Source: Arthrobacter sp. Edens01 (lineage in GTDB: Bacteria; Actinomycetota; Actinomycetes; Actinomycetales; Micrococcaceae). From it: a DNA stretch of 64,000 nucleotides. Position 1 is the first letter of the stretch; each line of letters begins with the position of its first letter. Where the stretch lies: positions 93,811 to 157,810 of the forward strand of contig NZ_LKIU01000004.1 in assembly GCF_001307035.1 (NCBI RefSeq). Direction: 5' to 3'. The notes beneath the pieces were generated by a model. It did no database searches. It had not been told where the DNA came from and saw nothing but the letters and a program-made list of their open reading frames with translations. Shown here one piece after another: positions 42,127-57,576 of the stretch. A program made the translations under genes and the position numbers.

Positions 42127-43368
42127 TTATCGGCGGAGGGGATCTAAAGCGCCCAGCTCCGGCGCCGAGGTTCCCTCCGCGATGGAATCTGCCAGGAGGC
42201 GGCCGCTGACAGGGCCGAGGACGACGCCCCACATCCCGTGTCCACCGGCTGCATAGACCCTGTTGGAGCGCAGTCGCCCCAACACGGGCAGGCCGTCTGA
42301 GGTAACCGGACGGGAACCCACCCAGGTGTCCCGGAGGGAGGAGAAATCCACCCCGTGAAGCACGGGACTGGCCGCTGCAACGATGGACTTTACCCGTGCC
42401 TGCACCAGTTGCCCGTCCGGGCTGCGGAATTCCATGGTTCCCGCGATGCGCATGCCGTCTTGGTACGGGGTAGCAACCACACGCTCTTTCGGCAGGTAGA
42501 TCGGCCCGTCCAACGGGAATGCCGAGTCCACGGTGAAGGAATAGCCGCGTCCGGCCTGAAGTGGGACGCGCAGCCCCCATTGGCGGGCCAGGCGGGGGAG
42601 CCAGGCTCCTGAAGCGAGGACCAGCACATCGGCTTGGAGGACCCCTCCCTGGGAAGAAACGACTTGGACACCCTTGGCGGATTCCGCAGTTGTAACGGCC
42701 TTCCAGCCTTCCAGTACGCGCCCGCCCCTTCGGCGGACGGCCGCACACAATCCCTGCACGAAGACTCCGGGGTCCACATAGCCCTGGCCCAGCACTGTAA
42801 GTGAACTGGTGATAGCCCTTGAAAACTGCGGTATGTGGGCTGCGGGACCCACGCTGAGAGGCTGGCCCAGCGCTGCAAGTTCGCCGAGATGCTCCCGAAA
42901 GTGCGCGGCGTCGCCTTCATTGCGAAAACCGACGGCATAGGGAGCCGGGGTGACGGACGGTATTTCGGCCTCCACCGCCATTTCCTTGAACGCTTTGTCC
43001 GCCTGCCTACAGAGCGGCACCAGTGCCTCGGCGGTCCGCCGCCAGCGGGATGGGGTCATGTTCCGGGCAAACCTTGCCAGGAAATGCCATAGCGCCGGAT
43101 TGGGCTGCATTGGTATGTGCAGCGGTGCATCCGGCCGGAAGAGCCCTTCAACGCCGTGTTTCCACGCTCCGGGTTCAGCCAGGGGAGTCACGAGTCCCGG
43201 TACTACCCAACCCGCGTTCCCCCAGCTCGCTCCGGAACCTGGACGGCCGGCATCGACGACCGTTACCTTCAGGCCCCGTTCCTGCAGGTGCCAGGCCGTG
43301 GACAGGCCTACGATCCCCGCCCCGACAATTACGGCACTCGACGGCGCCGTAGAAGATGACTGTTCCAA
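42127..43368 (-). CDS. dadA: D-amino-acid dehydrogenase (DadA-like), probable D-lysine deaminase
   Basis: FAD-dependent DAO-family dehydrogenase of 413 residues, which oxidises D-amino acids to 2-oxoacids and passes electrons to the membrane chain. It has VIVGAGIVGLSTAWHLQERG (about 13-32), the DadA loop SGASWGNAGWVVPGL (about 45-59), and the C-terminal SDGLPVLGRL and AGGHGMWGVVLGPVSGRLL. It ends a compact minus-strand operon with an amino-acid ABC transporter and a mu-crystallin-type reductase. From the context with hglS downstream, D-lysine is a good candidate substrate, giving piperideine-2-carboxylate after cyclisation. Substrate is inferred; other D-amino acids are possible. Confidence 0.82.
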   Translation of the reverse strand: MEQSSSTAPSSAVIVGAGIVGLSTAWHLQERGLKVTVVDAGRPGSGASWGNAGWVVPGLVTPLAEPGAWKHGVEGLFRPDAPLHIPMQPNPALWHFLARFARNMTPSRWRRTAEALVPLCRQADKAFKEMAVEAEIPSVTPAPYAVGFRNEGDAAHFREHLGELAALGQPLSVGPAAHIPQFSRAITSSLTVLGQGYVDPGVFVQGLCAAVRRRGGRVLEGWKAVTTAESAKGVQVVSSQGGVLQADVLVLASGAWLPRLARQWGLRVPLQAGRGYSFTVDSAFPLDGPIYLPKERVVATPYQDGMRIAGTMEFRSPDGQLVQARVKSIVAAASPVLHGVDFSSLRDTWVGSRPVTSDGLPVLGRLRSNRVYAAGGHGMWGVVLGPVSGRLLADSIAEGTSAPELGALDPLRR

Positions 43369-43375
43369 GTTGCTC

Positions 43376-44032
43376 CTAGAGGTGTCGGCTCATCCGTTTT
43401 TCGGCCAGCACTGACAGCCAGGTGGCGGGAATGGATATTGCCGCGTACAGGATTCCGGCTGCTATGAAGGCCGGCAGGTATTTGAAGGTTGACGAGCCTG
43501 TTGAATACGCCTGGCTCATGAGTTCGGGGACTGCAACGGTGTATGCGAGCGAGGTGGCTTGGAAGAGCAGCACAGCGAATCCCATCAGCGATGGCAGCGC
43601 GATCCTTAGCCCCTGCGGGATCACGATGAACCTCAGGCGGTCGCCGGCACTTAGCCCCAGCGCGTCAGCGCCCTCAACTTCTCCGGAGGGGACCGCCTGG
43701 ATACCTCCGCGGATCAGTTCGGCGGTGTACGCGGCGGTGGTCCAGGTCAGGGCCAGGCAGGCCGAAACCAGTGACGACAAAGTGATTTGGACGTTCGGCA
43801 GGCCGTAGTACATAAGCTGCAGGAGCACCAGCGCCGGGGCGCCGCGGCCCACCTCGACGAAGAACACCGAAATCCACCGCAATACCCGGTTGGGGGTTAC
43901 GACGCCGAAGGAAAGAAGGAGGCCAAGCGGAAGACCCAGCAGCAGGCTCGAGACCGTGAGCACCAGGCTTGTCTGGAGTCCTCCCAGCATGGTGGGAAGC
44001 AGGGCTGTGACGTCTGGGAGGAGTCCGTTCAC
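43376..44032 (-). CDS. Amino-acid ABC transporter permease (HisM/GlnP family), second
   Basis: Inner-membrane permease of 218 residues with about five helices and the BPD_transp_1 coupling loop GEVEGADALGLSAGDRLRFI (about 127-146). The signature TAELIRGGIQAVPSG is just before it. GTG 44032 overlaps the stop of the preceding permease (GTGA), so the long open frame further upstream is not real. It should pair with the neighbouring permease as a heterodimer around the ATPase. dadA starts seven bases after its stop. Confidence 0.88.
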   Translation of the reverse strand: MNGLLPDVTALLPTMLGGLQTSLVLTVSSLLLGLPLGLLLSFGVVTPNRVLRWISVFFVEVGRGAPALVLLQLMYYGLPNVQITLSSLVSACLALTWTTAAYTAELIRGGIQAVPSGEVEGADALGLSAGDRLRFIVIPQGLRIALPSLMGFAVLLFQATSLAYTVAVPELMSQAYSTGSSTFKYLPAFIAAGILYAAISIPATWLSVLAEKRMSRHL

Positions 44033-44667
44033 CGGGCCACCACCTTCCGCATCTTGGTGTCGAGGTGTCGGGACAGGATGCCCAGGGGCAGGCTGAGGGC
44101 AATGTAGACACCCGCTGCGATAAAGAAGATGAGAATGCCCTCGCCGGACTGGCGGGCATACTGATTGGACATGTAGACGATTTCCGCCACGCCAATGGTG
44201 GAGGCGATGGAGGAATCCTTCAGCAGGCCGATGCTGTACGTGGTGTAGGAGGGGATCGCGGTGCGCCAGGCCTGGGGACCCACCACGCGGCGCCAAAGGG
44301 TCGTCCGTGTGAACCCCAAGGCACTGGAGGCTTCCCATTGTCCGGAATGCACGGAACTGATCGCCCCGCGGAATATCTCGGCGAGGTAGGCGGCCGAGAC
44401 GAGCCCGAGTCCGATTACTCCGGCCTGCAGGGCGGTAAGGCGGAGCGCGCCGACCGATACGCCGTAGTACAGGATGAAGAGCCAAACGACTGGCGGGACG
44501 CCCCGCAGCAGGTCGATGATTCCACGACTGAGCAGCCACAGCAGGCGGTTTCCGCTGCGCAGGCCTGCCAGCAGCGGCAAAGCGGCGACTGTGCCGAGTG
44601 CCAGGGAAAGCACCGTCACAAGGATGGTCATGGGCAAACCGATCAGGATGGCCTGGAGCATCTGCAT
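44029..44667 (-). CDS. Amino-acid ABC transporter permease (HisQ/GlnP family), first
   Basis: Permease of 212 residues with five helices. The family pattern includes IDLLRGVPPVVWLFILYYG (about 50-68), AEIFRGAISSVHSGQWEASS (about 95-114) and ALGFTRTTLWRRVVGPQ for ATPase coupling. ATG 44667 lies four bases after the ATPase stop; a GTG at 44691 would overlap that gene by 20 bases. The stop overlaps the start of the second permease. Polar or basic amino-acid import is the family role. Confidence 0.88.
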   Translation of the reverse strand: MQMLQAILIGLPMTILVTVLSLALGTVAALPLLAGLRSGNRLLWLLSRGIIDLLRGVPPVVWLFILYYGVSVGALRLTALQAGVIGLGLVSAAYLAEIFRGAISSVHSGQWEASSALGFTRTTLWRRVVGPQAWRTAIPSYTTYSIGLLKDSSIASTIGVAEIVYMSNQYARQSGEGILIFFIAAGVYIALSLPLGILSRHLDTKMRKVVAR

Positions 44668-44671
44668 GGGA

Positions 44672-45445
44672 TCAGCGCTCCAGGACGGCACGCAGGAAGC
44701 GGCGGGTCCGTTCGTGCTGCGGATCGCTCATGACCTCGTGGGGATCTCCGGATTCGATGATGCCGCCGTCGGCCATGACCACCAGCTCATCAGCCACATT
44801 GGCCGCGAAGCCCATCTCGTGGGTGACCACAATCATCGTCATGCCCTCGGCAGCCAGCTCCTTCATTACTTCCAGCACCTCGACGCCGACTTCCGGGTCC
44901 AGCGCGGATGTGGGTTCGTCGAACAGCATGACGCGCGGACCGAGTGCCAGCGCCCTTGCGATCGCGATTCGCTGCTGCTGCCCGCCGGAACACCGGGCGG
45001 GGTACTGGTCGGCCTTATCTGCCAGGCCCATCCTGGTGAGCAGTTCCATTGACTTGGCATTGGCCTCTTCACGGCTGCGCCCGAGTACCCGTTCCTGCGG
45101 CAGGCTGATATTCCGCAGTACGGACATGTGCGGGAACAGGTTGAAGTGCTGGAAGACCATGCCTGCACTGCGCCGAAGCGCGGCCAGATTCCGGGCTGAT
45201 ACCTTGGCCCCGGCATTGATGAGGTGGCCGTCAATCTCAATCTCACCGCTGTCCGGTTTCTCCAGCAGGTTCATGCAGCGCAGCACTGTGCTTTTGCCGG
45301 CGCCGCTGGGACCGATCATTGCTGTTACCGAACCTTCCGGGACGGACAGCGAGACATCACGCAGGACTACGTGGTCGCCGTAGGCCTTGGCGAGGTTCCG
45401 GACCTGGACTACCAGGTTGGTCGATACGGGAGCGATACGGGACAT
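44672..45445 (-). CDS. Amino-acid ABC transporter ATP-binding protein (GlnQ/HisP type)
   Basis: ATPase of 257 residues. Walker A is GPSGAGKST (about 44-52), the Q-loop is in MVFQHFNLFPHMSVL (about 93-107), the ABC signature is CSGGQQQRIAIARAL (about 145-159), Walker B is VMLFDEPTSALDPE (about 165-178), and the H-loop is VTHEMGFA (about 199-206). The polar amino-acid uptake subgroup is clear. I chose ATG 45445, ten bases after AAGGA; upstream starts at 45457 or 45517 have poor spacing. It follows the reductase gene by 16 bases in the same operon. Confidence 0.9.
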   Translation of the reverse strand: MSRIAPVSTNLVVQVRNLAKAYGDHVVLRDVSLSVPEGSVTAMIGPSGAGKSTVLRCMNLLEKPDSGEIEIDGHLINAGAKVSARNLAALRRSAGMVFQHFNLFPHMSVLRNISLPQERVLGRSREEANAKSMELLTRMGLADKADQYPARCSGGQQQRIAIARALALGPRVMLFDEPTSALDPEVGVEVLEVMKELAAEGMTMIVVTHEMGFAANVADELVVMADGGIIESGDPHEVMSDPQHERTRRFLRAVLER

Positions 45446-45461: not shown

Positions 45462-46421
45462 CTACTTCGTGATGCGGACCGGTTGCCCCAGGTCCGCAGC
45501 GGCCACTGCACGGGCAACGGCCAGGTCTTCCCACGGCATGCCTGTGGTCTTGAATACGGCGGGTACGCCTTCCCGACGGGACCTGCGGCCCGTCACCAGG
45601 TCAGTTAGGGTGATCAGGTCCGGCGGGTCAGCCATTGCTCCCAGCTGCACGGCCTGGATGACGTCTCCGGCTTCCCGGAGTGCGGAATCGCAAGATTCGA
45701 CAACGACGGCGCTGCGCCCCATCAGCGCCTCGTCGACTTCACGGGCGCTCGGCTCGTGTGAACCGACGGCGATCACCACAGTGTTGGAAGAAACGAGACC
45801 CGAATCAAAGAGCGGTTCCCTCGCCGCAGTGCAGCAGATGATTACATCCGCTTGCGCTGCTGCTCCGGCGTCCGCAGCGCGTGCAGCAAGCCCGAGTTCA
45901 CGCTGTGCACGCGCTGCGAGCGAGGCCGCCGCCTCGGGATTGCGCCCAACCACTGCAACCTCGCTGATGGTGAAGACGTCGTCGAAGGTCCGGATGTGTT
46001 CCCACGCCTGCACGCCCGTGCCGAAGACCACTATTCTCATTCCGTCGCTCTCCACGAGCAGGCGGGCTCCGAAGGCGGAAACAGCAGAAGTCCTCAGGTT
46101 GGTCAGCTCGATCCCATCCAGCACCGCCCTTGGTTCGTTGTTCGGCCCCCCGAACAGGACATACAGTCCCTGGATCACGGGAGCATTCCGTGACGCGTTC
46201 TCCGGAGTGATGGTCAGCAGTTTCGTGCCGACCGCGCCGTCGAAGGCAGAGGGCATTTGCAGGAACTGGCCGGAGGGAAGCTCCACGCGGGTCCGCGGAG
46301 AGTCCTTCTCCGGATCCAGTCCGGAGAGCAGTGCGGTGTGAAGGGCATCCACCGCTCCGGAAGGACTTAGGGCCCTGCGCAGCCGGGCACCGTCGATAAA
46401 CCGGACCGTTGCGGCATCCAT
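45462..46421 (-). CDS. Ornithine cyclodeaminase/mu-crystallin family, possible piperideine-2-carboxylate reductase
   Basis: NAD(P)-binding protein of 319 residues. The conserved GTKLLTITPEN (about 65-75) and VLDGIELTNLRTSAVSAFGA (about 99-118) start the domain; the nucleotide motif is VVFGTGVQAWEHI (about 129-141), and later VIAVGSHEPSAREVDEAL is typical. Family members are ornithine cyclodeaminases, alanine dehydrogenases and ketimine reductases; human mu-crystallin reduces cyclic ketimines such as piperideine-2-carboxylate. Next to dadA and near hglS and an oxidase, a ketimine-reductase role making L-pipecolate is the simplest reading. That is an inference; ornithine cyclodeaminase or delta-pyrroline-2-carboxylate reductase activity remains possible. 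Confidence 0.83.
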   Translation of the reverse strand: MDAATVRFIDGARLRRALSPSGAVDALHTALLSGLDPEKDSPRTRVELPSGQFLQMPSAFDGAVGTKLLTITPENASRNAPVIQGLYVLFGGPNNEPRAVLDGIELTNLRTSAVSAFGARLLVESDGMRIVVFGTGVQAWEHIRTFDDVFTISEVAVVGRNPEAAASLAARAQRELGLAARAADAGAAAQADVIICCTAAREPLFDSGLVSSNTVVIAVGSHEPSAREVDEALMGRSAVVVESCDSALREAGDVIQAVQLGAMADPPDLITLTDLVTGRRSRREGVPAVFKTTGMPWEDLAVARAVAAADLGQPVRITK

Positions 46422-46436: not shown

Positions 46437-47279
46437 TTACTGGATCAGCCGGGGTTCGCCGGTTTCCGCTGCGGATTCAGGTAGACCGTTGGCGGTCAGG
46501 ATCTCGGCGACCGTGCCGTCCTCCTTCATCTTCTCGATGCTGGCGTCCAGCGCCTCGGTAAGACTTGAGTTTCCCTTCGTGTGCGGGAAGCCGATCTGTG
46601 CAGCGTCCTTGGACGCAATAACCCGGTCGTCCGGCTCAACAACTTCCACCGAGAAGTCTGCGGAATCCTTGTACATCTGTGCTGCGGAGCCGAATCCGTC
46701 CAGGCCTACCTGGATGCGGCCGGACTTCAAGTCAGCCTGCATTTCCACGGCGCTCGGATAGATGGTGAGCGCATCACCCAGCACAGCCTTCATATCGGCA
46801 ACCCACAGGTAACCGTCAACCGTTCCCACCTTGAGCGATTCCATGGCGGGAATGGAGGTAACGCCGTCGGCGGAGATGGATGACATGTCGTCGGTGTAGA
46901 CCGGTGCGGAGAGGTCCACGATTTCGGCGCGCTGGGCGGTGCGGTAATAGCAGCCGATCGCAACGTCGGCGCGGTTGCTCTGGACAGCGGGGATAGTGCC
47001 GGCATATGAGGTTGGTTCGAGCTTGAGCTCCAAGCAGTTCTCTTCCGCGAATGCGGCGATCAGGTCTGCGTCGGCACCCGTTGCCTTGCCGCTGGAGACG
47101 GAGGAGAAGGGTGGGAATTCAGGGGCTGCCACGGTCAGCACGCCCTCCTGCAGCGTCTCGACTTCGTGCTGGGGCACGCAGTCATCGGCAACGGAGGAGG
47201 CAGAGGTATCACCGCCGCAGGCAGTGAGGGCCAGTACCGCAAAGCTGGTGGCGGCGAGGGCGAGAGTGCGTTTAGCCAT
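46437..47279 (-). CDS. Amino-acid ABC transporter substrate-binding lipoprotein
   Basis: Lipoprotein of 280 residues. The signal peptide ends at the lipobox LTACGG (Cys21). The SBP_bac_3 domain is seen in GVLTVAAPEFPPFSSV (about 46-61), ADLIAAFAEENCLEL (about 71-85), and the later VDLSAPVYTDDMSSI region (about 122-136). It captures a polar amino acid outside the membrane. ATG 47279 follows AAAGGAC and gives the signal peptide at the right place; the longer open frame to 47513 is not used. It is the first gene of the operon SBP, reductase, ATPase, two permeases, dadA, and is divergent from a GntR regulator. Confidence 0.9.
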   Translation of the reverse strand: MAKRTLALAATSFAVLALTACGGDTSASSVADDCVPQHEVETLQEGVLTVAAPEFPPFSSVSSGKATGADADLIAAFAEENCLELKLEPTSYAGTIPAVQSNRADVAIGCYYRTAQRAEIVDLSAPVYTDDMSSISADGVTSIPAMESLKVGTVDGYLWVADMKAVLGDALTIYPSAVEMQADLKSGRIQVGLDGFGSAAQMYKDSADFSVEVVEPDDRVIASKDAAQIGFPHTKGNSSLTEALDASIEKMKEDGTVAEILTANGLPESAAETGEPRLIQ

Positions 47280-47325: not shown

Positions 47326-47337
47326 ACAACCGGTTGT
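47326..47337. promoter_or_regulatory. Palindrome ACAACCGGTTGT, candidate GntR operator
   Basis: A perfect 12-base palindrome lies 47 bases upstream of the binding-protein gene, in the divergent region shared with the FCD-type GntR gene. TTGT...ACAA-like half sites are common for this family. A TTGACA (47411-47416) further right points toward the GntR gene, but I see no well-spaced -10. Confidence 0.45.
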
Positions 47338-47459: not shown

Positions 47460-48128
47460 ATGCTCGAAAGTGATTCCGCCCCCGTGATTGGACTTCACGG
47501 GCTCACCCTCCACCGGGGCACCCTCAAAGACGAGGCGCTTGCCGTAGTTCGGTCCGCCTTGCTGTCCGGAGACATGAAGCCGGGACGTATTTATTCGGCA
47601 AACTCACTGGCGGCCCAGTTGGGGGTTTCCAACAGTCCTGTGCGCGAAGCAATGATGGATTTGGCCGGCAAGGGACTGCTCGAAGTCGTACGCAATCGTG
47701 GCTTCCGCGTTGTGGAAATGACGGATGCCGACCGGCAGGAGGTTTACGACCTGCGGATGCTGGTGGAAGTCCCGGCGGTTGTACAGGCAGCGCAGCGCGG
47801 CCTCAGCAACAAGGAGCAGTCGGAGGTCCGGCGTCTGCTGCAGGAAGTGCTGGACACAGCCGAGACCGGCGATCTGCGCAACTATTTGGATGCCGACCAG
47901 GCCCTGCATATGGGCATAGTTGCCCTGCTTGGGAATCGCCGACTGTACGGCATCGTCGAAAACCTGCGCGACCAGAGCCGGGTGCGCGGTTCCTATCACC
48001 TAACTGAACGCGGCGTCCTCGCGCAGAGCGCACAGGAACACCTCCCGATAGTCGAGGCCCTGATTTCCGGCGAGTCAGAGGTGCTTCAGCGGCTCATGGT
48101 GGAGCACCTCTCCTACGCCCGACCGTAA
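47460..48128 (+). CDS. GntR-family regulator with FCD ligand domain
   Basis: Regulator of 222 residues. The winged HTH lies at about 18-85 (RGTLKDEALAVVRSALLSGD, then AAQLGVSNSPVREAMMDLA), and the all-helical FCD domain begins near 92 (DADRQEVYDLRMLVEVPAV) with conserved Asp/His metal-site residues in the stretch ALHMGIVALLGN. FadR/FCD regulators usually repress catabolic operons and respond to the substrate or its oxoacid. It is divergent from the transporter-dadA operon and is its likely controller. Its 3' end overlaps the convergent LysR gene by 54 bases. Confidence 0.88.
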   Translation: MLESDSAPVIGLHGLTLHRGTLKDEALAVVRSALLSGDMKPGRIYSANSLAAQLGVSNSPVREAMMDLAGKGLLEVVRNRGFRVVEMTDADRQEVYDLRMLVEVPAVVQAAQRGLSNKEQSEVRRLLQEVLDTAETGDLRNYLDADQALHMGIVALLGNRRLYGIVENLRDQSRVRGSYHLTERGVLAQSAQEHLPIVEALISGESEVLQRLMVEHLSYARP

Positions 48129-49022
48129 TCCGGAGGAAGGTGCGGCGGCCTCCACCAGTGCCTCCAGGAGCCGCTCGACGCTTGCCCGCCGCAGCATCGC
48201 CGGCCTGGCCATAGCGACAATCGTCCTTTCTGCGCCCGAACCTAACCGCATGATGGTCCTGTCGGCTGGGTACAGGGCGAGCATGGATGCCGTGGCCAGC
48301 GTTGCCCCGGTGCCCTGGTCTGCGAGTGCCAGGGCAAGAGCCGTATCCATAACCGTGTGTTCAGTCTCCGGGACAATGTCCTCGGTTTCGAGGGCGGAGC
48401 GTGCAGCCCGGCCGAACGCTGAGGCAGCTGGCGGCAGTATCCAATGGCGGGCTTCGGCTGGCCGGCCTGCGGCGCCGGGCCGGCCAGCCGCGCACACCAC
48501 CAGAAGGTCTTCCCGCACCAGCGCCCGCCGGGTGATTTCCGCCGGGGTCTTCACCGGAACAGCGCTGTATTCGAGCCCCAGGGCGGCGTCAACACTGCCG
48601 GACAGGATAGCGGCGAGGGCGTGGTCCGGCTCTACTTCCCGGAGTTCAACCCGCAGTTGCGGATCTGTCCTCGCCAGCAGGCCCAGTGCGGGCACCGCGC
48701 AGGCGAGAGCGGCGGAGCCGAACACGCCCAGCCTGACTGCCGAATCGATTCCAGATCCCATCTCGTCCAGGGCGGCCGAGGCTTCCGATTCGGCTGCGAG
48801 CACCCCGAGAATGTGCCGGTGGAGGATTCGGCCGGCATCAGAGAGAAGCAGCCGTCGTCCGTCGCGGATAAAAAGCGACTGGCCGGTTTCCTTTTGCAGT
48901 GCCGTCATCTGCTGCGAAATAGCGCCAACGGTGTAGCCCAGCTGTTCGGCAGCTCCGCGCATGGACCCTTGCTCAGCCACCGCAGCAAGCATCCTCAGTT
49001 GTCCCAAGGTCCAGTTCCTCAT
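48075..49022 (-). CDS. LysR-family regulator of the lysine/aminoadipate operon (probable)
   Basis: LysR regulator of 315 residues. The N-terminal HTH is LGQLRMLAAVAEQGSMRGAA (about 6-25) with GYTVGAISQQMTALQKETGQ (about 29-48); the effector domain starts near 93 (AVRLGVFGSAALACAVPALG). It is divergent from the oxidase-hglS-amaB operon across 209 bases that contain a clean CTTTCC-N11-GGAAAG box and a promoter, so it should activate that operon. The last 54 bases overlap the 3' end of the GntR gene on the other strand. Confidence 0.87.
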   Translation of the reverse strand: MRNWTLGQLRMLAAVAEQGSMRGAAEQLGYTVGAISQQMTALQKETGQSLFIRDGRRLLLSDAGRILHRHILGVLAAESEASAALDEMGSGIDSAVRLGVFGSAALACAVPALGLLARTDPQLRVELREVEPDHALAAILSGSVDAALGLEYSAVPVKTPAEITRRALVREDLLVVCAAGRPGAAGRPAEARHWILPPAASAFGRAARSALETEDIVPETEHTVMDTALALALADQGTGATLATASMLALYPADRTIMRLGSGAERTIVAMARPAMLRRASVERLLEALVEAAAPSSGLRSGVGEVLHHEPLKHL

Positions 49023-49063: not shown

Positions 49064-49073
49064 AAAATTTAGC

Positions 49074-49231: not shown

Positions 49232-50419
49232 TTGGCGAACCAGGTGGTATCACTCTCCGGAGAAACGACGCAGCCAAGCAGGGCAGACGTCGTCATTATC
49301 GGCGGGGGAATAATGGGGGTCAGCATCGCCTACCACTTGGCGTCCGCAGGAGTCCGCGGGGTTGTTGTCATAGAACGTGCGGCTCTGGGCTCCGGGTCGT
49401 CCGCCAAGCCGTTAGGCGGGGTGCGTGCAACGTTCTCCGATCCGGCGAACGTTGCCCTCGGGAAGCGCAGCTTGGACGCCTACAAACGTTTTGGCGAAGA
49501 ATTCGGAGCAGACATTGGGCTGCGTCAGGTTGGCTACCTCTTTCTCTGCCGCAGCGAGGCTGAAGTGCTGGACTGTGAGGCAAGTGTTGCCGTGCAGAAT
49601 TCGTTTGGCAGCAACTCCAGGATGATCTCCGGCGCCGAGGCAGCGCGGATCAACCCATTCCTTGATCCGGAAGTGCTGCTTGCCGCATCCTTCTCCCCGC
49701 AGGACGGTTATGCCGAGCCTTCCCGTGCAGTTGCGGCATACGCCGCCGCGGCACAGGCGGCCGGGGTCCGGTTCCTGACCGGGACGGAGGTCCTGGCAGT
49801 GGAAACCGCGGCGGGGTCCATTCGCTCGGTCACCACCAACCGGGGGACCATCCGGACGGATTCCGTTATCTGTGCTGCCGGCGCCTGGTCCCGCCACGTT
49901 GGCCAGATGGTGGGAGTGGAGCTGCCTGTCACGCCCGTTCGCAGGCAAATTGGCATGACACGCCAGCAGCCGCAGCCGTATCCGGAAGTCCCGTTCACGT
50001 TGGATCTCTCAACCACGATGTACTTCCACAACTATGGCAACGGCATGCTGCTCGGGATCTCTAACCAGCAGGCACCGGGTTTCGGACGGGATTTCAGTTT
50101 CGAGTGGCTGGGGGAGTTCAACGCGGCCGCACGGATCTGCGCGCCGTCCCTGGCCGAACCGGACCTGGAGTTCGGCTGGGCGGGGCTGTATGAAAACACC
50201 CCGGACCACAACGCCCTGATCGGTGCTTCCGACGAAGTATCGGGCTTCTTCTACGCCACCGGTTTCTCCGGACACGGATTCCTGCAGGGGCCCGCCGTTG
50301 GGGAACTGGTCCGCGACCTCTATCTCGGCAGACAGGGGTTCATGGATGTTTCAACTTTCTCCGTAACCAGGTTCCACAACGACGACGAAGCGCTGGTACG
50401 CGAAGTCCACATCATTTGA
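49232..50419 (+). CDS. DAO-family FAD oxidoreductase, possible L-pipecolate oxidase/dehydrogenase
   Basis: Flavoprotein of 395 residues related to the sarcosine oxidase beta subunit. It has VVIIGGGIMGVSIAYHLASA (about 20-39), the FAD loop GSGSSAKPLGGVRATFSDPA (about 53-72), and the C-terminal TPDHNALIGASDEVSGFFYA (about 328-347) with GFSGHGFLQGPAVGELV. The start is TTG 49232 seven bases after AGGAGG. It heads an operon with hglS, an ALDH7 enzyme and a D-2-hydroxyglutarate dehydrogenase. Pseudomonas AmaA, a sarcosine-oxidase-like enzyme, oxidises L-pipecolate to piperideine-6-carboxylate in the same pathway, so that is the proposed role. Other secondary amines are possible. Confidence 0.8.
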   Translation: MANQVVSLSGETTQPSRADVVIIGGGIMGVSIAYHLASAGVRGVVVIERAALGSGSSAKPLGGVRATFSDPANVALGKRSLDAYKRFGEEFGADIGLRQVGYLFLCRSEAEVLDCEASVAVQNSFGSNSRMISGAEAARINPFLDPEVLLAASFSPQDGYAEPSRAVAAYAAAAQAAGVRFLTGTEVLAVETAAGSIRSVTTNRGTIRTDSVICAAGAWSRHVGQMVGVELPVTPVRRQIGMTRQQPQPYPEVPFTLDLSTTMYFHNYGNGMLLGISNQQAPGFGRDFSFEWLGEFNAAARICAPSLAEPDLEFGWAGLYENTPDHNALIGASDEVSGFFYATGFSGHGFLQGPAVGELVRDLYLGRQGFMDVSTFSVTRFHNDDEALVREVHII

Positions 50420-50468: not shown

Positions 50469-51905
50469 ATGAGTTTCCACCACCTCTGGCAGCTGAGGGC
50501 GGAGTTCGCCCGCAGGCTGTCAGCCATGTACGGCACAGAGGTCCCGGCCTACAACACCCTGGTAGACGTTTCAACACAGGTGAACCAGGCCTACCTCCTA
50601 CAGCACGGAGCGGACGCGGAGCGCCTAGGCAGCATCGACCGCGTCACAGCGGAAAGGCATGGCGCCATCCGTGTTGGGTCCGAACGCGAAATGTCCCAGG
50701 TGGCACGGATCTTCGCAGCATTCGGCATGTACCCGGTGGGCTTCTACGATCTCCGTGACGCCTCCAAATCAGCAGTGCCCGTGGTCTCTACAGCGTTCCG
50801 TCCCGTCACGGCAGATGAACTGGCCCGCAATCCGTTTCGGGTTTTCACATCAATGCTCGCGGTGGAGGACCCCCGGTTCTTTGACCCGGCCCTGCAGAGC
50901 GAACTCAAGGATTTCTTTGACCGCCGGGAACTCTTCGGCCAGGAGCTCCTGGAGCTGGCTGACCGCGCCGCCGCCGGCAGCGGACTCGAGGAAGAGGAAG
51001 CCGGACGGCTGCTGGAGCTGGCAACCGGGGCCTTCGAGCTCTCCGCTGAACCCGTGGACCATGACTGGTACCGGCGGCTGGAGGCGATCTCCGCGGTCGC
51101 CTCGGACATTGGGGGAGTCACCAGCACCCACATTAACCACCTCACTCCGCGGGTCCTGGACATTGACGCCCTCTATGCAGGCATGGAAGCCCTCGGAATC
51201 ACCATGATCGACGAAATCCAGGGTCCGCCGCGGTGGGACGGACCGGACGTCCTGCTGCGGCAGACATCCTTCCGTGCCTTGGGCGAGGAACGGCTCTTCC
51301 GTTATCCCGACGGTTCCGTCCGGAAAGGGGAACTCCGGGTGCGGTTTGGAGAAGTCGAAGCCCGCGGCATTGCCCTGACGCCTGCCGGCAGGGACCTCTA
51401 CGACCGGATGGTCGCGGATGTGGACCGGCGTCTGCAGGATGACCCTTCCCAGGACAGCCAGGGCGCTGCACGCGCTGTCTGGGAGGAGAACCTGCCCCGC
51501 ACGGAGAAGGAGCTGGCCGCACGCGGCCTGGCCTACTTCACCTTTACCGCGGACAAGGCAGCCGCAGCCGGCCTGCCCCAAGGCCCGTTCACACTGGCTG
51601 AACTGATCGAGTCAGGGGCCGCCGTACCCGAGCCGATCGTCTACGAGGATTTCCTGCCCCGCTCCGCAGCCGGAATCTTCCAGTCCAATCTCACTGACGA
51701 GGGATCGAAAAATGAGTCCGAACTGGCAGCGGACTACGACATGGCGCGGATGTCCGGCATTATCGGGCGCCCCGTGCACGATCCCTATGAGCTGTACCAG
51801 CGCCAGCAGGACGGCTCGGTGCGGGCCCTTGCGGATGCTCTCGGCATAGATCTCCTCCCCTCCACGGCCGAAGCCGCTGCGGCAGCAACCGGCGCCGGCA
51901 ACTGA
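50469..51905 (+). CDS. hglS: 2-oxoadipate dioxygenase/decarboxylase (HglS, DUF1338)
   Basis: Iron(II)-dependent enzyme of 478 residues that converts 2-oxoadipate to D-2-hydroxyglutarate. The DUF1338/VOC pattern is complete: ERHGAIRVGS with a putative iron ligand His64 and an Arg four residues later, matching the spacing I recall for the Pseudomonas enzyme; STHINHLTPR (about 219-228, His221/His224) for the second ligand; and RFGEVEARG (about 292-300) for the glutamate. The N-terminal LWQLRAEFARRLSAMYGTEV also fits. ATG 50469 follows GGAAGGAC. Its presence is the strongest single marker of lysine degradation through aminoadipate in this locus. Confidence 0.92.
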   Translation: MSFHHLWQLRAEFARRLSAMYGTEVPAYNTLVDVSTQVNQAYLLQHGADAERLGSIDRVTAERHGAIRVGSEREMSQVARIFAAFGMYPVGFYDLRDASKSAVPVVSTAFRPVTADELARNPFRVFTSMLAVEDPRFFDPALQSELKDFFDRRELFGQELLELADRAAAGSGLEEEEAGRLLELATGAFELSAEPVDHDWYRRLEAISAVASDIGGVTSTHINHLTPRVLDIDALYAGMEALGITMIDEIQGPPRWDGPDVLLRQTSFRALGEERLFRYPDGSVRKGELRVRFGEVEARGIALTPAGRDLYDRMVADVDRRLQDDPSQDSQGAARAVWEENLPRTEKELAARGLAYFTFTADKAAAAGLPQGPFTLAELIESGAAVPEPIVYEDFLPRSAAGIFQSNLTDEGSKNESELAADYDMARMSGIIGRPVHDPYELYQRQQDGSVRALADALGIDLLPSTAEAAAAATGAGN

Positions 51906-51969: not shown

Positions 51970-53496
51970 ATGACTTCGATCGCCCAGACCACGGAGCTGG
52001 CCCCACGCATCCAGAACGCACTTGCTGCCTGCGGTGTTACGAATGACGCCTACGGCGAGGACCGCGCCACCCGTTCGCCGCTGACCGGCGAACCCCTCGT
52101 CAGTCTGCGCAACACTACGGACGAAGAGGTGGAGGCAGCCATCGCGGCAGCCCATTCCGCCTTCCTCTCATGGCGGGAGGTTCCCGCTCCGGTACGCGGA
52201 AATGTGGTCAAGCGGTGGGGCGAGCTGTTGACCGAGCATAAGGAGGACCTGGCCGCGATTGTCCAGGCCGAGGCCGGCAAGATCACCTCGGAAGCGCTCG
52301 GCGAAGTGCAGGAGATGATCGACATCTGCGACTTCGCAGTCGGGCAGTCCCGCATGCTTTACGGCAAGACCATGCCGTCGGAGCGGCCGGGTCACCGGCT
52401 GATGGAAACCTGGCATCCACTCGGGGTGGTGGGTGTGATTTCGGCATTCAACTTCCCGGTCGCCGTGTACTCATGGAACACCGCCCTGGCCTTGATCGCC
52501 GGTGACACAGTGGTCTGGAAGCCGTCCGGCACGACCATGCTCTCCGCGCTGGCCACCAACGCCCTCCTAGCGAGGGCGGTGGCCGAAAGCGGCGCACCGG
52601 CTGAGATCCATCAGCTCATCGTGACTGACCGCGGCGGAGCGCAGCGGCTCATTGAGGACGAGCGTGTAGCACTGGTATCCGCGACCGGGTCCGTGCGAAT
52701 GGGCCGGGAAATCGCTCCGAAGGTGGCAGAGCGCTTTGGCCGGACCATCCTGGAGCTGGGCGGAAACAACGGTGCAATCATCACCCCGAGTGCTGATTTG
52801 GATCTGGCACTGCGCGGCATTGTGTTTGCCGCCGTCGGGACCGCAGGGCAGCGCTGCACCTCGATGCGGCGGCTGATTGTGCACGAATCGATCGTGGAGG
52901 AACTCATCGGGAAACTCGTTGCCGCCTACTCCAGCCTGAACATTGGCCTTCCGCTCGATGAAAACAACCTCGTGGGTCCGCTGATCAACGAAGCGAGCTA
53001 CGACGCAATGCAGCGGGCTCTGGCCCAGGCCAGGGAAGAAGGCGGTACGGTGCTCACCGGCGGGGAACGCGTGCTCGCCGAAACCTACCCGGAGGCGTAC
53101 TACGTGGAGCCGGCCATCGTCCGGATGCCGGAACAGAGCGGCGTGGTGCACGATGAAACCTTCGCTCCGATCCTCTACGTCATGACCTACACCGACTTCG
53201 ATGAGGCCATCGCTCTGCACAATGCCGTTCCGCAGGGACTCTCTTCGGCGGTGTTCACCCAGGACCAGGCCGAAGCGGAGCGGTTCCTCTCCGCCTCCGG
53301 TTCGGACTGCGGGATCGCAAACGTCAACATAGGTACCTCCGGTGCCGAGATCGGCGGGGCCTTCGGCGGCGAAAAGGAGACCGGCGGCGGGCGGGAATCC
53401 GGATCGGACTCGTGGAAGGCATACATGCGCCAGGCCACTAATACCGTCAACTACTCCGGACAGCTGCCGCTGGCCCAGGGCGTGGAGTTCCTCTAA
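51970..53496 (+). CDS. amaB: L-2-aminoadipate-6-semialdehyde dehydrogenase (ALDH7/AmaB)
   Basis: NAD-dependent aldehyde dehydrogenase of 508 residues. The ALDH7 (antiquitin) group is recognised by WHPLGVVGVISAFNFPVAVY (about 150-169), ELGGNNGAII (about 260-269), catalytic Cys in GTAGQRCTSMRRL (about 293-305), and the C-terminal GAEIGGAFGGEKETGGGRES (about 459-478), nearly diagnostic for this subfamily. It oxidises aminoadipate semialdehyde (in equilibrium with piperideine-6-carboxylate) to L-2-aminoadipate. I use ATG 51970 after AGGAA; the open frame to 51931 has no homology. It lies directly downstream of hglS in the same operon. Confidence 0.9.
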   Translation: MTSIAQTTELAPRIQNALAACGVTNDAYGEDRATRSPLTGEPLVSLRNTTDEEVEAAIAAAHSAFLSWREVPAPVRGNVVKRWGELLTEHKEDLAAIVQAEAGKITSEALGEVQEMIDICDFAVGQSRMLYGKTMPSERPGHRLMETWHPLGVVGVISAFNFPVAVYSWNTALALIAGDTVVWKPSGTTMLSALATNALLARAVAESGAPAEIHQLIVTDRGGAQRLIEDERVALVSATGSVRMGREIAPKVAERFGRTILELGGNNGAIITPSADLDLALRGIVFAAVGTAGQRCTSMRRLIVHESIVEELIGKLVAAYSSLNIGLPLDENNLVGPLINEASYDAMQRALAQAREEGGTVLTGGERVLAETYPEAYYVEPAIVRMPEQSGVVHDETFAPILYVMTYTDFDEAIALHNAVPQGLSSAVFTQDQAEAERFLSASGSDCGIANVNIGTSGAEIGGAFGGEKETGGGRESGSDSWKAYMRQATNTVNYSGQLPLAQGVEFL

Positions 53497-53554: not shown

Positions 53555-54730
53555 GTGGTCGATGATGTTTTCAATTTGATGGACGAGTGGGGACCGGAAA
53601 AGATCGTCGCGGTCAGCGACACCAAGACCGGAATGAAGGGCGTCCTGGTCATCGACAACACAGCCCGTGGGATAGGCAAGGGCGGCACCCGCATGCTGCC
53701 GACCGTATCCGTCCGGGAAATCGCCCGGCTCGCGCGGGTGATGACCTGGAAGTGGGCAGGTGTGGACCTGTTCTACGGCGGCGCAAAGGCAGGTATTCAG
53801 GCCGATCCGCAGTCCCCGTACAAAGAGGAAATCCTCCGCGCCTTCGTCCGCCGGCTGAGCAACGAGGTGCCCGCAGAGTACGTCTTCGGGCTGGATATGG
53901 GCCTAACGGAAGACGACGCGGCAATCATCAACGATGAGCTGGGAGACCGGGGCGCTGCGGTGGGAACCCCTTACGAGCTGGGCGGAATACCGTACGACAA
54001 GCTGGGCATCACCGGTTACGGGGTAGCCGAGGTAGTGGACCAGGCCGCCGTCCGGATCGGCTTGGAAGGGCGGCGCGTGGCGCTCCAGGGGTTCGGAGCG
54101 GTGGGCCACGCCGCCGCGGCCCGCCTGCATGCCTTGGGCTACAGTGTGGTCTCGATTTCCACGGCCGCGGGGGCGCTGCATGACCCCGCTGGACTGGATG
54201 TGCCGCTGCTGCTGCAGCTCCGGGAGGACCGGGGAGACACGCTGGTCGATGCTCTGCCGCAGCTTCGGATCGAACCCGGTTCAGAGCTGCTGGTGGACGC
54301 CGACATTGCGGTTCCGGCCGCGCTGCAGGACGTGATCACCGTCAACAACGCGGCGGACATCAAGGCACGCCTTCTAGTAGAGGGGGCCAACCTGCCGACT
54401 TCTCCTGACGCGCAGGCGCTGCTGCACCGGCGTGGAGTGACCGTCATCCCAGACTTTGTAGCCAACGCCGGAGGAGTGGTGAGTGCTGCCTTCGCCATGG
54501 ATGCAAGGTACTCGGCGTTCAGACCGGAAACCGAGCAGATCTTCACCACAGTGTCGGCGAAACTGCGGACGAACGCCGACCAGGTCCTGGATGAGACGCT
54601 CCGGCGCGGCGGGACGAGTCACGAGGCGGCCCGGGCAATGGCACAGGAACGGGTCCTTGTGGCGATGGAGCTGCGGGGCAAACCGCGGCGAAACAGGACG
54701 GCTTTCCCCGCTCTTTCGGCCAGCCGCTAG
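53555..54730 (+). CDS. Glu/Leu/Phe/Val-type amino-acid dehydrogenase, possible 2-aminoadipate deaminase
   Basis: NAD(P)-dependent oxidative deaminase of 391 residues. The N-domain has GGTRMLPTVSVREIARLARV (about 44-63) and the substrate lysine motif FYGGAKAGIQADP (about 74-86); the nucleotide domain has VALQGFGAVGHAAAARLHAL (about 175-194). NAGGVVSAAF (about 303-312) is typical of the C-terminal half. GTG 53555 follows AAGGAG; an open frame reaching back into amaB is spurious. In the lysine route the one step otherwise missing from this operon is deamination of L-2-aminoadipate to 2-oxoadipate, which this enzyme could supply in place of an aminotransferase. Glutamate dehydrogenase activity for nitrogen balance is the main alternative. 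Confidence 0.82.
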   Translation: MVDDVFNLMDEWGPEKIVAVSDTKTGMKGVLVIDNTARGIGKGGTRMLPTVSVREIARLARVMTWKWAGVDLFYGGAKAGIQADPQSPYKEEILRAFVRRLSNEVPAEYVFGLDMGLTEDDAAIINDELGDRGAAVGTPYELGGIPYDKLGITGYGVAEVVDQAAVRIGLEGRRVALQGFGAVGHAAAARLHALGYSVVSISTAAGALHDPAGLDVPLLLQLREDRGDTLVDALPQLRIEPGSELLVDADIAVPAALQDVITVNNAADIKARLLVEGANLPTSPDAQALLHRRGVTVIPDFVANAGGVVSAAFAMDARYSAFRPETEQIFTTVSAKLRTNADQVLDETLRRGGTSHEAARAMAQERVLVAMELRGKPRRNRTAFPALSASR

Positions 54731-54732
54731 CC

Positions 54733-57576
54733 GTGGTGACCGTGAGTGCAGAAACTGACCTGACTGCCCTGCTGGCCGAACTCCGCCAATCGTTGAAAGG
54801 CGAGGTGGACGGCGGCCCTGCGCGCCGTGCGCAGTACTCATCTGATGCGTCCAACTATCGGATCGCACCACTGGCGGTCGTTCTTCCCCGCGATGAGGAC
54901 GATGTCCTTGCTGCTTTGAAGATTGCCGGCCGCCACCAGGTGCCTGTTACTGTCCGAGGCGGAGGGACCTCCTGCGCAGGCAACGCAGTAGGCCCGGGGC
55001 TGGTGCTGGACATGAGCAGGTCTATGAACAGGATCATTTCCATCGACCCGGAGACCCGGACGGCGGTGGTACAGCCGGGCGTCGTACTCTCAGATTTGCA
55101 GGCAGCAGCTGCCGCCTTTGGACTGCGTTTTGGGCCAGACCCGTCCACGGCCACGCGCTGCACGCTGGGCGGGATGATTGGGAACAACGCCTGCGGGCCG
55201 CACGGCCTGGCTTACGGCCGCACGGCAGACAGTGTGCTGGGCCTGCGGCTTCTGACCGGTGACGGCCGGGTGCTGGAACTTGGTGCAGGGCGGGAAAGCT
55301 TCGACCAGGTGCCGGGTTTGGAGCAGTTTGTGCTGGCTCGTCTGGAGACCATACGCACCGAATTTGGTCGGTTCAGCCGTCAGATTTCCGGCTACAGCCT
55401 GGAACACCTCCTGCCGGAGAATGGCAGGAACCTGGTCGCAGCCCTGACGGGAACGGAGGGGACCTGCGGCATCATTCTCGAGGCCCGACTGCAGCTGGTC
55501 CAGCGTTCGCCGGCGCCGGCACTTGCCGTGCTGGGGTACCCGGACATGGCTGCAGCAGCAGATGCTGTTCCGGGCCTGCTCCCGCACGGACCGCTGGCGC
55601 TCGAAGGGCTGGACAGTGCGCTGGTGGAAAGTGTCCGCCGATCCGGCGCCGATTTGCCGGATCTCCCGGCAGGCGGCGGCTGGCTGATGGCGGAAGTCGG
55701 CGGCGCCACCGAATCCGAAGCAGTTGCCTCAGCCCAGGCGATGGTTCGTGATGGCGGGGCGCTGGACGCTGTGGTCCTGCCATCAGGGCCAGAGGCGCGG
55801 AAACTGTGGCAGGTCCGGGCTGATGGTGCCGGACTCGCCGGAAGGACGGCCGGGGGCCTGCAGGCATGGCCGGGTTGGGAAGACTCTGCAGTTCCTCCGG
55901 AACATCTGGGCGATTATCTGCGCTCACTGACGGCGCTGATGGAAAAGCACCGGCTTTCCGGGCTCGCCTACGGCCACTTCGGTGACGGCTGTGTTCACCT
56001 GCGTATCGACTTTCCACTCGACGCGGATGGAAAAGCCATGCGGGCCTTCCTTTTCGCTGCGGCGGAGCTCGCGGCCTCCTACGGCGGTTCCCTCTCCGGC
56101 GAACATGGTGACGGACGGGCGCGCAGTGAACTCCTGGGCGCGATGTATTCCGCAGAAGCTATTGCCGCATTCGCCGCGTTCAAGGCGCTGTTCGATCCGC
56201 AGGGGATTCTTAATCCGGGGGTGGTAGTGGATCCGGACCCACTGGATGCCGCACTGAGACGGCCTCAGGCCGTTGAGGTGCGGGCGGGAGACGGATTCGC
56301 CTTCGCCCACGACGCCGGCAGCGTCACCGATGCGCTGCACCGCTGCGTGGGCGTAGGCAAATGCAGGGCGGATCTTCGCGCTGAAGGAGGGTTTATGTGT
56401 CCTTCCTACCAAGCCACGCGCGACGAGGCAGAATCGACCCGAGGCAGGGCGAGGGTACTGCAGGAGATGCTCAACGGCGGAATCATCGAGATCGGCTGGT
56501 CAGCACCGGAAGTCCATGAGGTCCTCGACCTGTGCCTAAGCTGCAAAGCCTGCGCCAACGATTGCCCCACCGGCATAGACATGGCGATGTACAAGTCCGA
56601 GGCCCTGCATCAGACCTTCAAGGGCCGGGTCCGGCCCTTGACTCACTACACCTTCGGAAGGCTCCCGGCCTGGCTGCGGCTGGCCGGACCCGTGGCACCA
56701 CTGATCAACCTAGCTGGAAGAATCCCCGGCTTTGGGCGGCTTGCCATGCGTCTGGCTGGCGCTGACCCGCGCCGTGCCCTTCCCAAACTCCCTAACCGTC
56801 CGTTCCGAGCCCTGCACCAAGCCCGTAACCGGCCAACGGAGAACGGGCCCGAATCGGGGCACCCGGTGCTGCTCTGGGTAGACTCCTTCTCCGACACACT
56901 CAGCCCCGACGTCGCCAAAGCGGCTTTGAAACTCCTCACCGCGGCCGGCTGCGACGTCCAGCTGGCCGGGCCGGGAGCGTGCTGCGGCCTGACTCTCATC
57001 ACCACCGGCCAGCTGACAGCGGCAAAAGCGAAACTCAGCCGGACCCTTGATCTGCTGTACCCCCATGTCCAGGCTGGTCGAGTCATCGTCGGGCTGGAAC
57101 CATCCTGCACCGCGGTGCTCCGCTCGGACATTCTGGAGCTGTTGCCGCAGGACCCGCGTGCCCAGGCGGTGTCACGGGCGACCAAGACCGTAGCGGAACT
57201 CCTCGACTCCATGGGGTGGACACCGCCGCAGGTTGGGGAGGCACTGCTGGTGCAGCCGCACTGCCATCATCACGCCGTCATGGGCTACAGCGCGGACCTC
57301 GCCTTGCTGGAGAAGGCCGGATGCGACGTCGAAGTATCTTCCGGCTGCTGCGGTCTGGCAGGCAACTTCGGTATGGAAAAGGGACACTACGAAATCTCCG
57401 CGAAGATCGCCGGCGACGGGATCCTTAGCCTGGCTGCCGCAGACCCGGAACGGGCCGTGCTGGCTGACGGGTTCAGCTGCCGAACCCAGGTTGCTGACCT
57501 GGCGGGGCTCCCGGCACGCCACCTGGTGCAGGTCTTGGCTGACGCTTTGGATAAACCGGAGGACTCCCGCCTCTGA
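54733..57576 (+). CDS. FAD- and Fe-S-dependent D-2-hydroxyglutarate dehydrogenase (YdiJ-like)
   Basis: Large flavo-iron-sulfur dehydrogenase of 947 residues. Domains in order: FAD_binding_4 (about 40-220, with PVTVRGGGTSCAGNAVGPG and TLGGMIGNNACGPH); FAD-oxidase C domain (about 260-505, with GHFGDGCVHLRIDFP and SGEHGDGRARSELL); a 4Fe-4S region with CVGVGKCR and CLSCKACANDCPTG (about 538-620); then two CCG-type cysteine modules (GPGACCGLTL about 750 and SGCCGLAGNFGM about 875). The length and all-in-one layout match YdiJ, which oxidises D-2-hydroxyglutarate to 2-oxoglutarate. Behind hglS this gives the last step of the route. The start is GTG 54733 or GTG 54739. D-lactate is a less likely substrate. 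Confidence 0.88.
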   Translation: MVTVSAETDLTALLAELRQSLKGEVDGGPARRAQYSSDASNYRIAPLAVVLPRDEDDVLAALKIAGRHQVPVTVRGGGTSCAGNAVGPGLVLDMSRSMNRIISIDPETRTAVVQPGVVLSDLQAAAAAFGLRFGPDPSTATRCTLGGMIGNNACGPHGLAYGRTADSVLGLRLLTGDGRVLELGAGRESFDQVPGLEQFVLARLETIRTEFGRFSRQISGYSLEHLLPENGRNLVAALTGTEGTCGIILEARLQLVQRSPAPALAVLGYPDMAAAADAVPGLLPHGPLALEGLDSALVESVRRSGADLPDLPAGGGWLMAEVGGATESEAVASAQAMVRDGGALDAVVLPSGPEARKLWQVRADGAGLAGRTAGGLQAWPGWEDSAVPPEHLGDYLRSLTALMEKHRLSGLAYGHFGDGCVHLRIDFPLDADGKAMRAFLFAAAELAASYGGSLSGEHGDGRARSELLGAMYSAEAIAAFAAFKALFDPQGILNPGVVVDPDPLDAALRRPQAVEVRAGDGFAFAHDAGSVTDALHRCVGVGKCRADLRAEGGFMCPSYQATRDEAESTRGRARVLQEMLNGGIIEIGWSAPEVHEVLDLCLSCKACANDCPTGIDMAMYKSEALHQTFKGRVRPLTHYTFGRLPAWLRLAGPVAPLINLAGRIPGFGRLAMRLAGADPRRALPKLPNRPFRALHQARNRPTENGPESGHPVLLWVDSFSDTLSPDVAKAALKLLTAAGCDVQLAGPGACCGLTLITTGQLTAAKAKLSRTLDLLYPHVQAGRVIVGLEPSCTAVLRSDILELLPQDPRAQAVSRATKTVAELLDSMGWTPPQVGEALLVQPHCHHHAVMGYSADLALLEKAGCDVEVSSGCCGLAGNFGMEKGHYEISAKIAGDGILSLAAADPERAVLADGFSCRTQVADLAGLPARHLVQVLADALDKPEDSRL

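Follow-up and report, generated by a model that had tools for sequence, protein, structure and literature searches.

A putative pipecolate catabolic locus in Arthrobacter sp. Edens01 with a proposed L-2-aminoadipate dehydrogenase

According to excerpts of a study of the enzyme HglS (PMC7286885), the route by which it leads to 2-oxoglutarate has been worked out in Pseudomonas and in plants. Here we analyse a 64,000-nucleotide stretch of Arthrobacter sp. Edens01 (contig NZ_LKIU01000004.1, positions 93,811 to 157,810; this whole stretch is the window, and positions given without a locus name are counted within it), in which a locus at 42127-57576 holds an HglS gene together with genes for a piperideine-6-carboxylate dehydrogenase (P6CDH), a glutamate/leucine-type dehydrogenase of the ELFV superfamily (the ELFV enzyme) and several flavoenzymes. 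In the P. putida route, a piperideine-6-carboxylate dehydrogenase acts upstream of HglS. The pathway proposed for the locus is of a known kind; its new parts are the proposed aminoadipate dehydrogenase and a version of the module that appears to be fed by a lactamase. We consider it likely that these genes form a catabolic island that degrades pipecolate and its ketimine, in which the ELFV enzyme would carry out the deaminating step on aminoadipate.

The catabolic operon and its two anchor enzymes

The first-pass annotation of the window had arranged the genes in two operons in pathway order, and all genes that it named are present at or near the positions it had given them. We assessed gene identities against the curated cut-offs of NCBIfam models, with Pfam domains as a second basis. 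The catabolic operon comprises five genes:

49232-50419, plus strand: FAD oxidoreductase (DAO), probable L-pipecolate oxidase/dehydrogenase (PF01266; solved chain 1y56_B, 227 bits; synteny with HglS)
50469-51905, plus strand: HglS, 2-oxoadipate dioxygenase/decarboxylase (NF050083, 724 bits against a cut-off of 600; PF07063, 458 bits; match to 6w1g)
51970-53496, plus strand: P6CDH, L-piperideine-6-carboxylate/2-aminoadipate semialdehyde dehydrogenase (NF050084, 811 bits against a cut-off of 730; closest solved chain Pcd, 6rtr, 732 bits)
53555-54730, plus strand: ELFV (Glu/Leu-type) dehydrogenase, proposed L-2-aminoadipate dehydrogenase (deaminating) (PF00208, PF02812; pocket, linkage, tree and fold)
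54733-57576, plus strand: two-part FAD and Fe-S D-2-hydroxyglutarate dehydrogenase (D2HGDH), YdiJ-like (PF01565, PF02913, PF13183, PF02754)

HglS and the ALDH7 group, which the first-pass annotation had taken as its anchors, serve well in that role: both proteins exceed their curated cut-offs and both keep their catalytic residues. HglS residues H64, R68, H224 and E295, together with S399, are present in all 91 aligned rows (at least 400 columns and at least 50% identity). Excerpts of PMC7286885 describe an HHE metal triad and a 2-oxoadipate-binding Arg74 in Pseudomonas HglS, and by the residues given there H64, H224 and E295 are the metal triad and R68 the substrate arginine. At residue 398, 76 of the 91 rows have Arg, six Lys and nine Ala, where P. 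putida has Val402, in a mobile substrate loop. In P6CDH, the catalytic C296 and E262 are kept in 76 of 76 rows (at least 400 columns and at least 55% identity). By family membership, HglS is predicted to make D-2-hydroxyglutarate from 2-oxoadipate. What is observed directly are families, active-site residues and gene linkage, and family membership fixes the substrates of HglS and P6CDH only; every other substrate named below we infer.

In the proposed pathway, an ABC importer would take up a lysine-derived amino acid, a reductase of the OCD family would convert Delta1-piperideine-2-carboxylate to L-pipecolate, and the DAO flavoenzyme would oxidize L-pipecolate to piperideine-6-carboxylate, from which P6CDH would form L-2-aminoadipate. 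With NAD(P)+, the ELFV enzyme would then yield 2-oxoadipate and ammonium, replacing an aminotransferase; HglS would convert 2-oxoadipate to D-2-hydroxyglutarate, and the YdiJ-like flavo-iron-sulphur enzyme would complete the route to 2-oxoglutarate. A DadA-like enzyme encoded in the window's genome may supply the ketimine from D-lysine or D-pipecolate. The steps from piperideine-6-carboxylate or its semialdehyde to 2-oxoglutarate are supported by the two anchors and by conserved synteny. The YdiJ-like protein combines FAD-oxidase halves with a 4Fe-4S/CCG half, a domain make-up that agrees with D-2-hydroxyglutarate dehydrogenase.

An HglS gene was found in 2 of 29 genomes of the genus, 16 of 245 of the family and 25 of 296 of the class, counting the window's own each time. 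The block DAO-HglS-P6CDH-ELFV-D2HGDH is complete in 11 of the 16 family loci fetched (L083-L098), and the plus-strand block proteins of relatives are 56-84% identical to those of the window. Because this block recurs in relatives, the grouping of its genes is more than chance. Other family genomes hold parts of it: HglS-ELFV-D2HGDH only (G488), DAO-HglS-P6CDH only (G532), HglS and D2HGDH (G422), no D2HGDH after the ELFV gene and a 45% identical one elsewhere in the locus (G366), or a less similar HglS (56%) with different neighbours (G344). The block occurs in several genera of the family and, in rearranged form, in Streptomyces, Rhodococcus, Mycolicibacterium and others; the window's genome is not alone in this gene organisation.

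Across the class, P6CDH (at least 61% identity) accompanies HglS in 21 of 24 loci, the window's excluded. The entry enzymes of class loci include a lysine 6-aminotransferase (Lat; cluster C1, nine loci, one member identified at 758 bits) and, as an alternative, a saccharopine-dehydrogenase-like protein (cluster C6, five loci, one member identified). The window's genome has no Lat above the cut-off (best 140 of 521 bits).

The ELFV dehydrogenase: pocket, relatives and genomic linkage

The ELFV enzyme has the fold and the catalytic Lys and Asp of glutamate dehydrogenase. When the two are aligned, the lysine holding the carboxylate of the side chain is kept as K42 in 95 of 95 ELFV rows, a count that is partly built in, because one of the two patterns by which 80 of the rows were found contains that lysine; the rows from outside the pattern scan were found without selection on K42. 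The 95 rows also include copies, as L100 is the window's own gene and several of L083-L095 recur in L108-L187. Two further pocket positions lie in neither search pattern: position 112 is Gly in all 95 rows and Ala in 18 of 18 paralogs, and position 311 is Ala in all 95 rows and Ser in 17 of the 18 paralogs, the last having a gap. The enzyme thus lacks the side-chain pocket of the Ala163/Ser380 type found in glutamate dehydrogenase (in what we take to be the numbering of the Clostridium symbiosum enzyme). Leucine-type dehydrogenases have a hydrophobic residue in place of the carboxylate lysine, and K42 sets the ELFV enzyme apart from these as well; at this site Ile or Val is found in relatives of the enzyme (39-41% identity) encoded on plasmids from three proteobacteria. 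Carriage of the ELFV gene itself on plasmids was considered and rejected, as seven plasmids hold only relatives of 39-43% identity.

In E. coli glutamate dehydrogenase, K92 and S380 act on the gamma-carboxylate (PMC8784811), and in a halophile glutamate dehydrogenase the changes K89L, A163L and S367A led to activity on methionine, norleucine and norvaline (PMC5708825). With the lysine kept and two positions enlarged, the pocket suits a dicarboxylic amino acid whose chain exceeds that of glutamate by one carbon, and the ELFV enzyme is most likely an L-2-aminoadipate dehydrogenase.

An acidic residue is missing from the ELFV enzyme, which could hint at a preference for NADP. The fold agrees with the ELFV superfamily: a structure predicted from 26 rows (L162, which has a stop, and L149, L152 and L179 were left out) has a pLDDT of 83 and matches glutamate dehydrogenases among the top 50 listed, with TM scores of 0.73-0.81 by query length. 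The shared fold and the retained carboxylate lysine would also suit a different division of labour within the same pathway, in which the ELFV enzyme works as a normal glutamate dehydrogenase and an aminoadipate aminotransferase encoded elsewhere draws on the 2-oxoglutarate it regenerates; class III aminotransferase homologs below the Lat cut-off do occur in the genome, in a search that did not extend to other aminotransferase classes. We consider this unlikely. No aminotransferase lies among the window genes at 42127-57576, and a second PF00208 gene in the genome scores higher (291 bits, against 187 for the ELFV gene). Against the NCBIfam glutamate dehydrogenase models, the ELFV enzyme reaches at best 182 bits of a cut-off of 620. 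No row retains the Ala or the Ser of the glutamate pocket, and the ELFV rows group apart from glutamate-dehydrogenase-like paralogs with support of 92/91 (an unstarred branch) in a tree of 100 rows, 82 of them ELFV, in which the paralog rows L082 and L099 have very long branches and the proteobacterial relatives were left out. The rows nearest to the window's own in this tree come from Arthrobacter-type Micrococcaceae.

Genomic linkage also argues for an aminoadipate dehydrogenase. Orthologs of the ELFV enzyme (at least 66% identity) occur in 13 of the 245 family genomes, the next matches being at most 41% identical, and all 13 of these genomes have HglS, compared with 3 of the 232 others (P = 4e-19 by Fisher's exact test, which is no clean probability because the genomes are related). 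We then considered the best 80 of 163 confirmed ELFV loci from a scan of a species-genome collection, all of them from named genomes of Actinomycetota. Within the flank examined, 52 of the 80 have HglS (at least 50% identity), 45 have P6CDH (at least 55%), 57 have one or both, and 43 have a D-2-hydroxyglutarate dehydrogenase. Five loci (L125, L158, L168, L176 and L184) combine ELFV and P6CDH in genomes where no HglS was found.

Several findings weigh against this reading and need to be set beside it. Neither HglS nor P6CDH is nearby in 23 of the 80 loci, and among the 28 genomes without a nearby HglS it lies elsewhere in seven and was not found in 21, some of which are metagenome-assembled genomes. 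Conversely, three of the 16 family genomes with HglS have no ELFV ortholog, and none was found in 24 further HglS genomes of the class, several of the assemblies being fragmented. Eight of these 27 genomes hold ten ELFV paralogs of 35-38% identity, all of them more than 10 kb from HglS or on another contig. The key pocket residues are identical in ELFV loci without HglS or P6CDH, and the substrate may therefore be broader or different in some members. At the last step of the pathway, the YdiJ-like protein reaches 406 bits on NF049975, far from its cut-off of 1350.

Ten of the 23 loci with neither gene carry an aldehyde dehydrogenase that is 34-45% identical to P6CDH; the two that were tested have P6CDH as their best model, at 347 and 341 of 730 bits, far below the cut-off. 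Among individual loci, L121 has a 445-residue frame between DAO and ELFV (8660-9997, plus strand) that matched no Pfam or NCBIfam model within the limits applied, and in L128, a locus without HglS, a dihydrodipicolinate-synthase-family gene (11149-12075) directly follows the ELFV gene.

Entry into the pathway and its regulators

The import operon and the two regulators lie upstream of the catabolic block:

42127-43368, minus strand: DadA-like FAD amino-acid dehydrogenase, possible D-lysine or D-pipecolate dehydrogenase (PF01266; PRK00711, 171 bits)
43376-44041, minus strand: amino-acid ABC transporter permease 2 (PF00528, TIGR01726; start inferred)
44029-44691, minus strand: amino-acid ABC transporter permease 1 (PF00528)
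44672-45445, minus strand: ABC transporter ATPase of the GlnQ/HisP type (PF00005; GlnQ model, 296 bits against a cut-off of 379; start inferred)
45462-46421, minus strand: OCD/mu-crystallin family protein, probable Delta1-piperideine-2-carboxylate reductase (PF02423; solved-chain matches)
46437-47279, minus strand: putative family-3 amino-acid substrate-binding protein (PF00497, on the longer open reading frame)
47326-47337, no strand: palindrome ACAACCGGTTGT, candidate operator of the GntR regulator (recurrence in relatives)
47460-48128, plus strand: GntR/FCD-family regulator (PF07729, PF00392; cluster C0 in 11 loci)
48075-49022, minus strand: LysR-family regulator (PF03466, PF00126)

The segment at 43376-45445 had been annotated as import genes; the function stands, and the segment in fact holds three genes, two permeases and an ATPase. 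In permease 2 the two domains lie in the C-terminal half of a longer open reading frame extending to 44539, which is probably over-extended. The nearest solved chain to the substrate-binding protein is a reconstructed ancestor (68 bits), with lysine/arginine/ornithine-binding proteins at about 30 bits.

We compared the entry side across nine loci in which the ABC operon is present and sequence continues beyond the second permease. The transporter and the OCD reductase are found together in all nine. The DadA-like gene adjoins the transporter in four (the window, G320, G498 and G414) and is not beside it in the other five (G438, G428, G352, G444 and G483, by tblastn at 1e-12; the rest of those genomes was not searched). 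The first-pass annotation had looked to conservation of the whole locus in relatives as a check, and on these counts the block from DAO to D2HGDH recurs and the DadA-like gene is variable. The conserved entry theme is uptake followed by predicted reduction of the ketimine to pipecolate. In two family loci, an AgcS-type sodium:amino-acid symporter (L092:3296-4759 and L094:10854-12368) replaces the ABC transporter beside the OCD gene.

The entry enzymes fall short of the available models, which pulls in the same direction as the linkage exceptions above. DAO passes no NCBIfam cut-off and reaches 64.6 bits of 600 on NF050086, the model of the AmaA pipecolate oxidase; because no pipecolate-oxidase model is matched, pipecolate as the compound fed into the block is read from the gene context of DAO. 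Its nearest solved chain, 1y56_B, was deposited as a sarcosine oxidase and is, we assume, a proline dehydrogenase subunit. The OCD protein reaches 180 bits of 322 on PRK06141, the pyrroline/piperideine-2-carboxylate reductase model, and 142 of 400 on the LhpI model. For the DadA-like protein the best NCBIfam model, PRK00711 (NF001933), has a cut-off of 383 bits, more than twice its score. OCD is also present in the five loci without an adjacent DadA-like gene, and the LysR gene is found in only three of the 13 family loci L083-L095.

That OCD is retained in those five loci would be expected if it were an L-lysine cyclodeaminase, converting L-lysine directly to L-pipecolate with no D-amino acid step. 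Its matches among solved chains make this improbable: lysine cyclodeaminase is further off, at 58 bits, than a ketimine reductase (4bv8) and a pyrroline-2-carboxylate reductase (6t3e), each at 106 bits. Moreover, the 16 rows printed of 23 OCD rows (at least 250 columns and at least 40% identity) have His at what we take to be the place of the cyclodeaminase catalytic Asp, a tentative correspondence.

The first-pass annotation had proposed a complete pathway from D-lysine to 2-oxoglutarate, and of this the part from pipecolate downwards holds up better than its start. If the whole locus began at D-lysine, the DadA-like enzyme would form 2-oxo-6-aminocaproate/piperideine-2-carboxylate, OCD would form L-pipecolate, and the remaining steps would follow. 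The window does have the DadA-like gene, OCD and the ABC transporter grouped on the same strand, and the best model for the DadA-like gene is a D-amino acid dehydrogenase of the PRK00711 type. This start is possible, and we regard it as somewhat doubtful: the DadA-like gene stands beside the transporter in fewer than half of the comparable loci, falls below all cut-offs, and encodes a protein nearer to glycine oxidases, its closest solved chains (77 bits), than to D-arginine dehydrogenase (23 bits). D-lysine as the starting compound is thus a weak proposal, and we prefer to read the locus as beginning with pipecolate and its ketimine.

In the window, the GntR gene and the import operon point away from each other, as do the LysR gene and the catabolic operon. 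The GntR gene, which the first-pass annotation had not listed, is the conserved regulator of the two. The palindrome ACAACCGGTTGT sits in the gap between it and the import operon. Allowing two mismatches, it occurs at two places in the window against 1.57 expected, and is not rarer than chance. Among nine usable intervals it is unchanged in L109 and L111 and appears as a symmetric variant, ACAATCGATTGT, in L114 and L118; the remaining five (L110, L112, L115, L116 and L119) have a partial version, a different one or none. Close kinship can explain this recurrence in part, and ACAACCGGTTGT is a candidate operator only.

Just outside the locus, 38282-42123 encodes a SigK-like ECF sigma factor with an anti-sigma factor, a class F sortase and a CE1759-type FMN reductase. 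Downstream of the block, 57659-61211 encodes a D-2-hydroxyacid dehydrogenase, a putative cyclase and a thiamine pyrophosphate-dependent enzyme, which are not kept adjacent in the loci of relatives; the first of these (57659-58582) was considered as an operon member and excluded, as it is not beside the block in those loci.

A lactamase-linked module and comparison with known systems

In two distant genomes the ELFV gene has another setting. Arthrobacter sp. VKM Ac-2550 (L108, the genome G488 above; 2176-14135) and Streptomyces sp. ODS25 (L170; 1-11200) each have a cluster of HglS, ELFV and D-2-hydroxyglutarate dehydrogenase, with no DAO or P6CDH within the flank examined. Both carry a gene for an MFS metabolite/H+ symporter-like protein and a hydantoinase/oxoprolinase-type pair, of which the CapA-like proteins are 69% and the CapB-like proteins 76% identical between the two. 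On the caprolactamase models the CapA-like proteins reach 496 and 495 bits (cut-off 1000) and the one CapB-like protein tested 241 bits (cut-off 1000); because these scores are below the cut-offs, the pairs are relatives of caprolactamase and not proven caprolactamases. The CapA form of G488 is found only there among the 245 family genomes, the eight others found being at most 40% identical. A more distant CapAB-like pair (29-36%) lies near HglS, on the other strand, in L037.

Since the ELFV gene occurs both with HglS in the absence of P6CDH and with P6CDH in the absence of HglS, the step common to its contexts is that from L-2-aminoadipate to 2-oxoadipate. In the lactamase-linked setting, aminoadipate would come from a lactam, presumably 6-oxopiperidine-2-carboxylate, for which there was no bacterial route among the literature matches listed. 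We lean, with some reserve, towards the view that the ELFV enzyme founds a new family of L-2-aminoadipate dehydrogenases (deaminating) in many actinobacterial families. Together with HglS and D-2-hydroxyglutarate dehydrogenase, it would form a portable module from aminoadipate to 2-oxoglutarate that is plugged into differing sources of aminoadipate: pipecolate and piperideine-6-carboxylate in the window, and ATP-dependent lactamase opening of 6-oxopiperidine-2-carboxylate in the two distant genomes.

Literature on HglS/DUF1338, on aminoadipate with glutamate or amino-acid dehydrogenases, and on Streptomyces pipecolate gave no description of the locus among the matches listed; subscription papers mostly fell outside this search, and an earlier description is possible. 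There was no match for pipecolate with Arthrobacter, and of the papers using the term 'aminoadipate dehydrogenase' none was on such an enzyme, judging by titles and the beginnings of abstracts. Excerpts of one report describe a phenylalanine dehydrogenase that was engineered for 2-aminoadipate and 2-oxoadipate because the affinity of the wild type was insufficient (PMC8967036); if our assignment is correct, the ELFV enzyme would be a useful natural enzyme for this pair, and a function would be assigned to a family without a fitting NCBIfam model. In a literature listing, 6-oxo-pipecolate appears as a lysine-derived biomarker in ALDH7A1 deficiency, and the lactamase-fed version, if true, would be a possible bacterial breakdown route for it. 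The locus as a whole presents the HglS pathway as a compact two-operon actinobacterial locus in which oxidative deamination apparently replaces transamination.

The closest known system is D-lysine catabolism in P. putida, where, according to excerpts of PMC7286885, HglS likewise converts 2-oxoadipate to D-2-hydroxyglutarate, which goes on to 2-oxoglutarate. It differs in that the operon described here contains an ELFV dehydrogenase. This enzyme stands in the place of what we take to be the P. putida aminotransferase for 2-aminoadipate, PP_4108; AmaA and DpkA of P. putida presumably also differ from the flavin-dependent pipecolate oxidase and OCD-type reductase proposed here. Actinobacterial loci with Lat, P6CDH and HglS share with the window the HglS model and P6CDH in one locus, whereas in them Lat (TIGR03251; 758 bits for the L031 protein) is the entry point for L-lysine, and their genomes have no ELFV ortholog. 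With glutamate and leucine dehydrogenases the ELFV enzyme shares the superfamily fold and the catalytic Lys and Asp; compared with glutamate dehydrogenase it keeps the carboxylate lysine and has Gly112 and Ala311 instead of Ala and Ser. Finally, P6CDH has its closest solved counterpart in Pcd (6rtr), presumably the enzyme of Streptomyces clavuligerus, in which the Pcd product feeds beta-lactam synthesis; in the locus described here, the same type of enzyme would be put to catabolic use.

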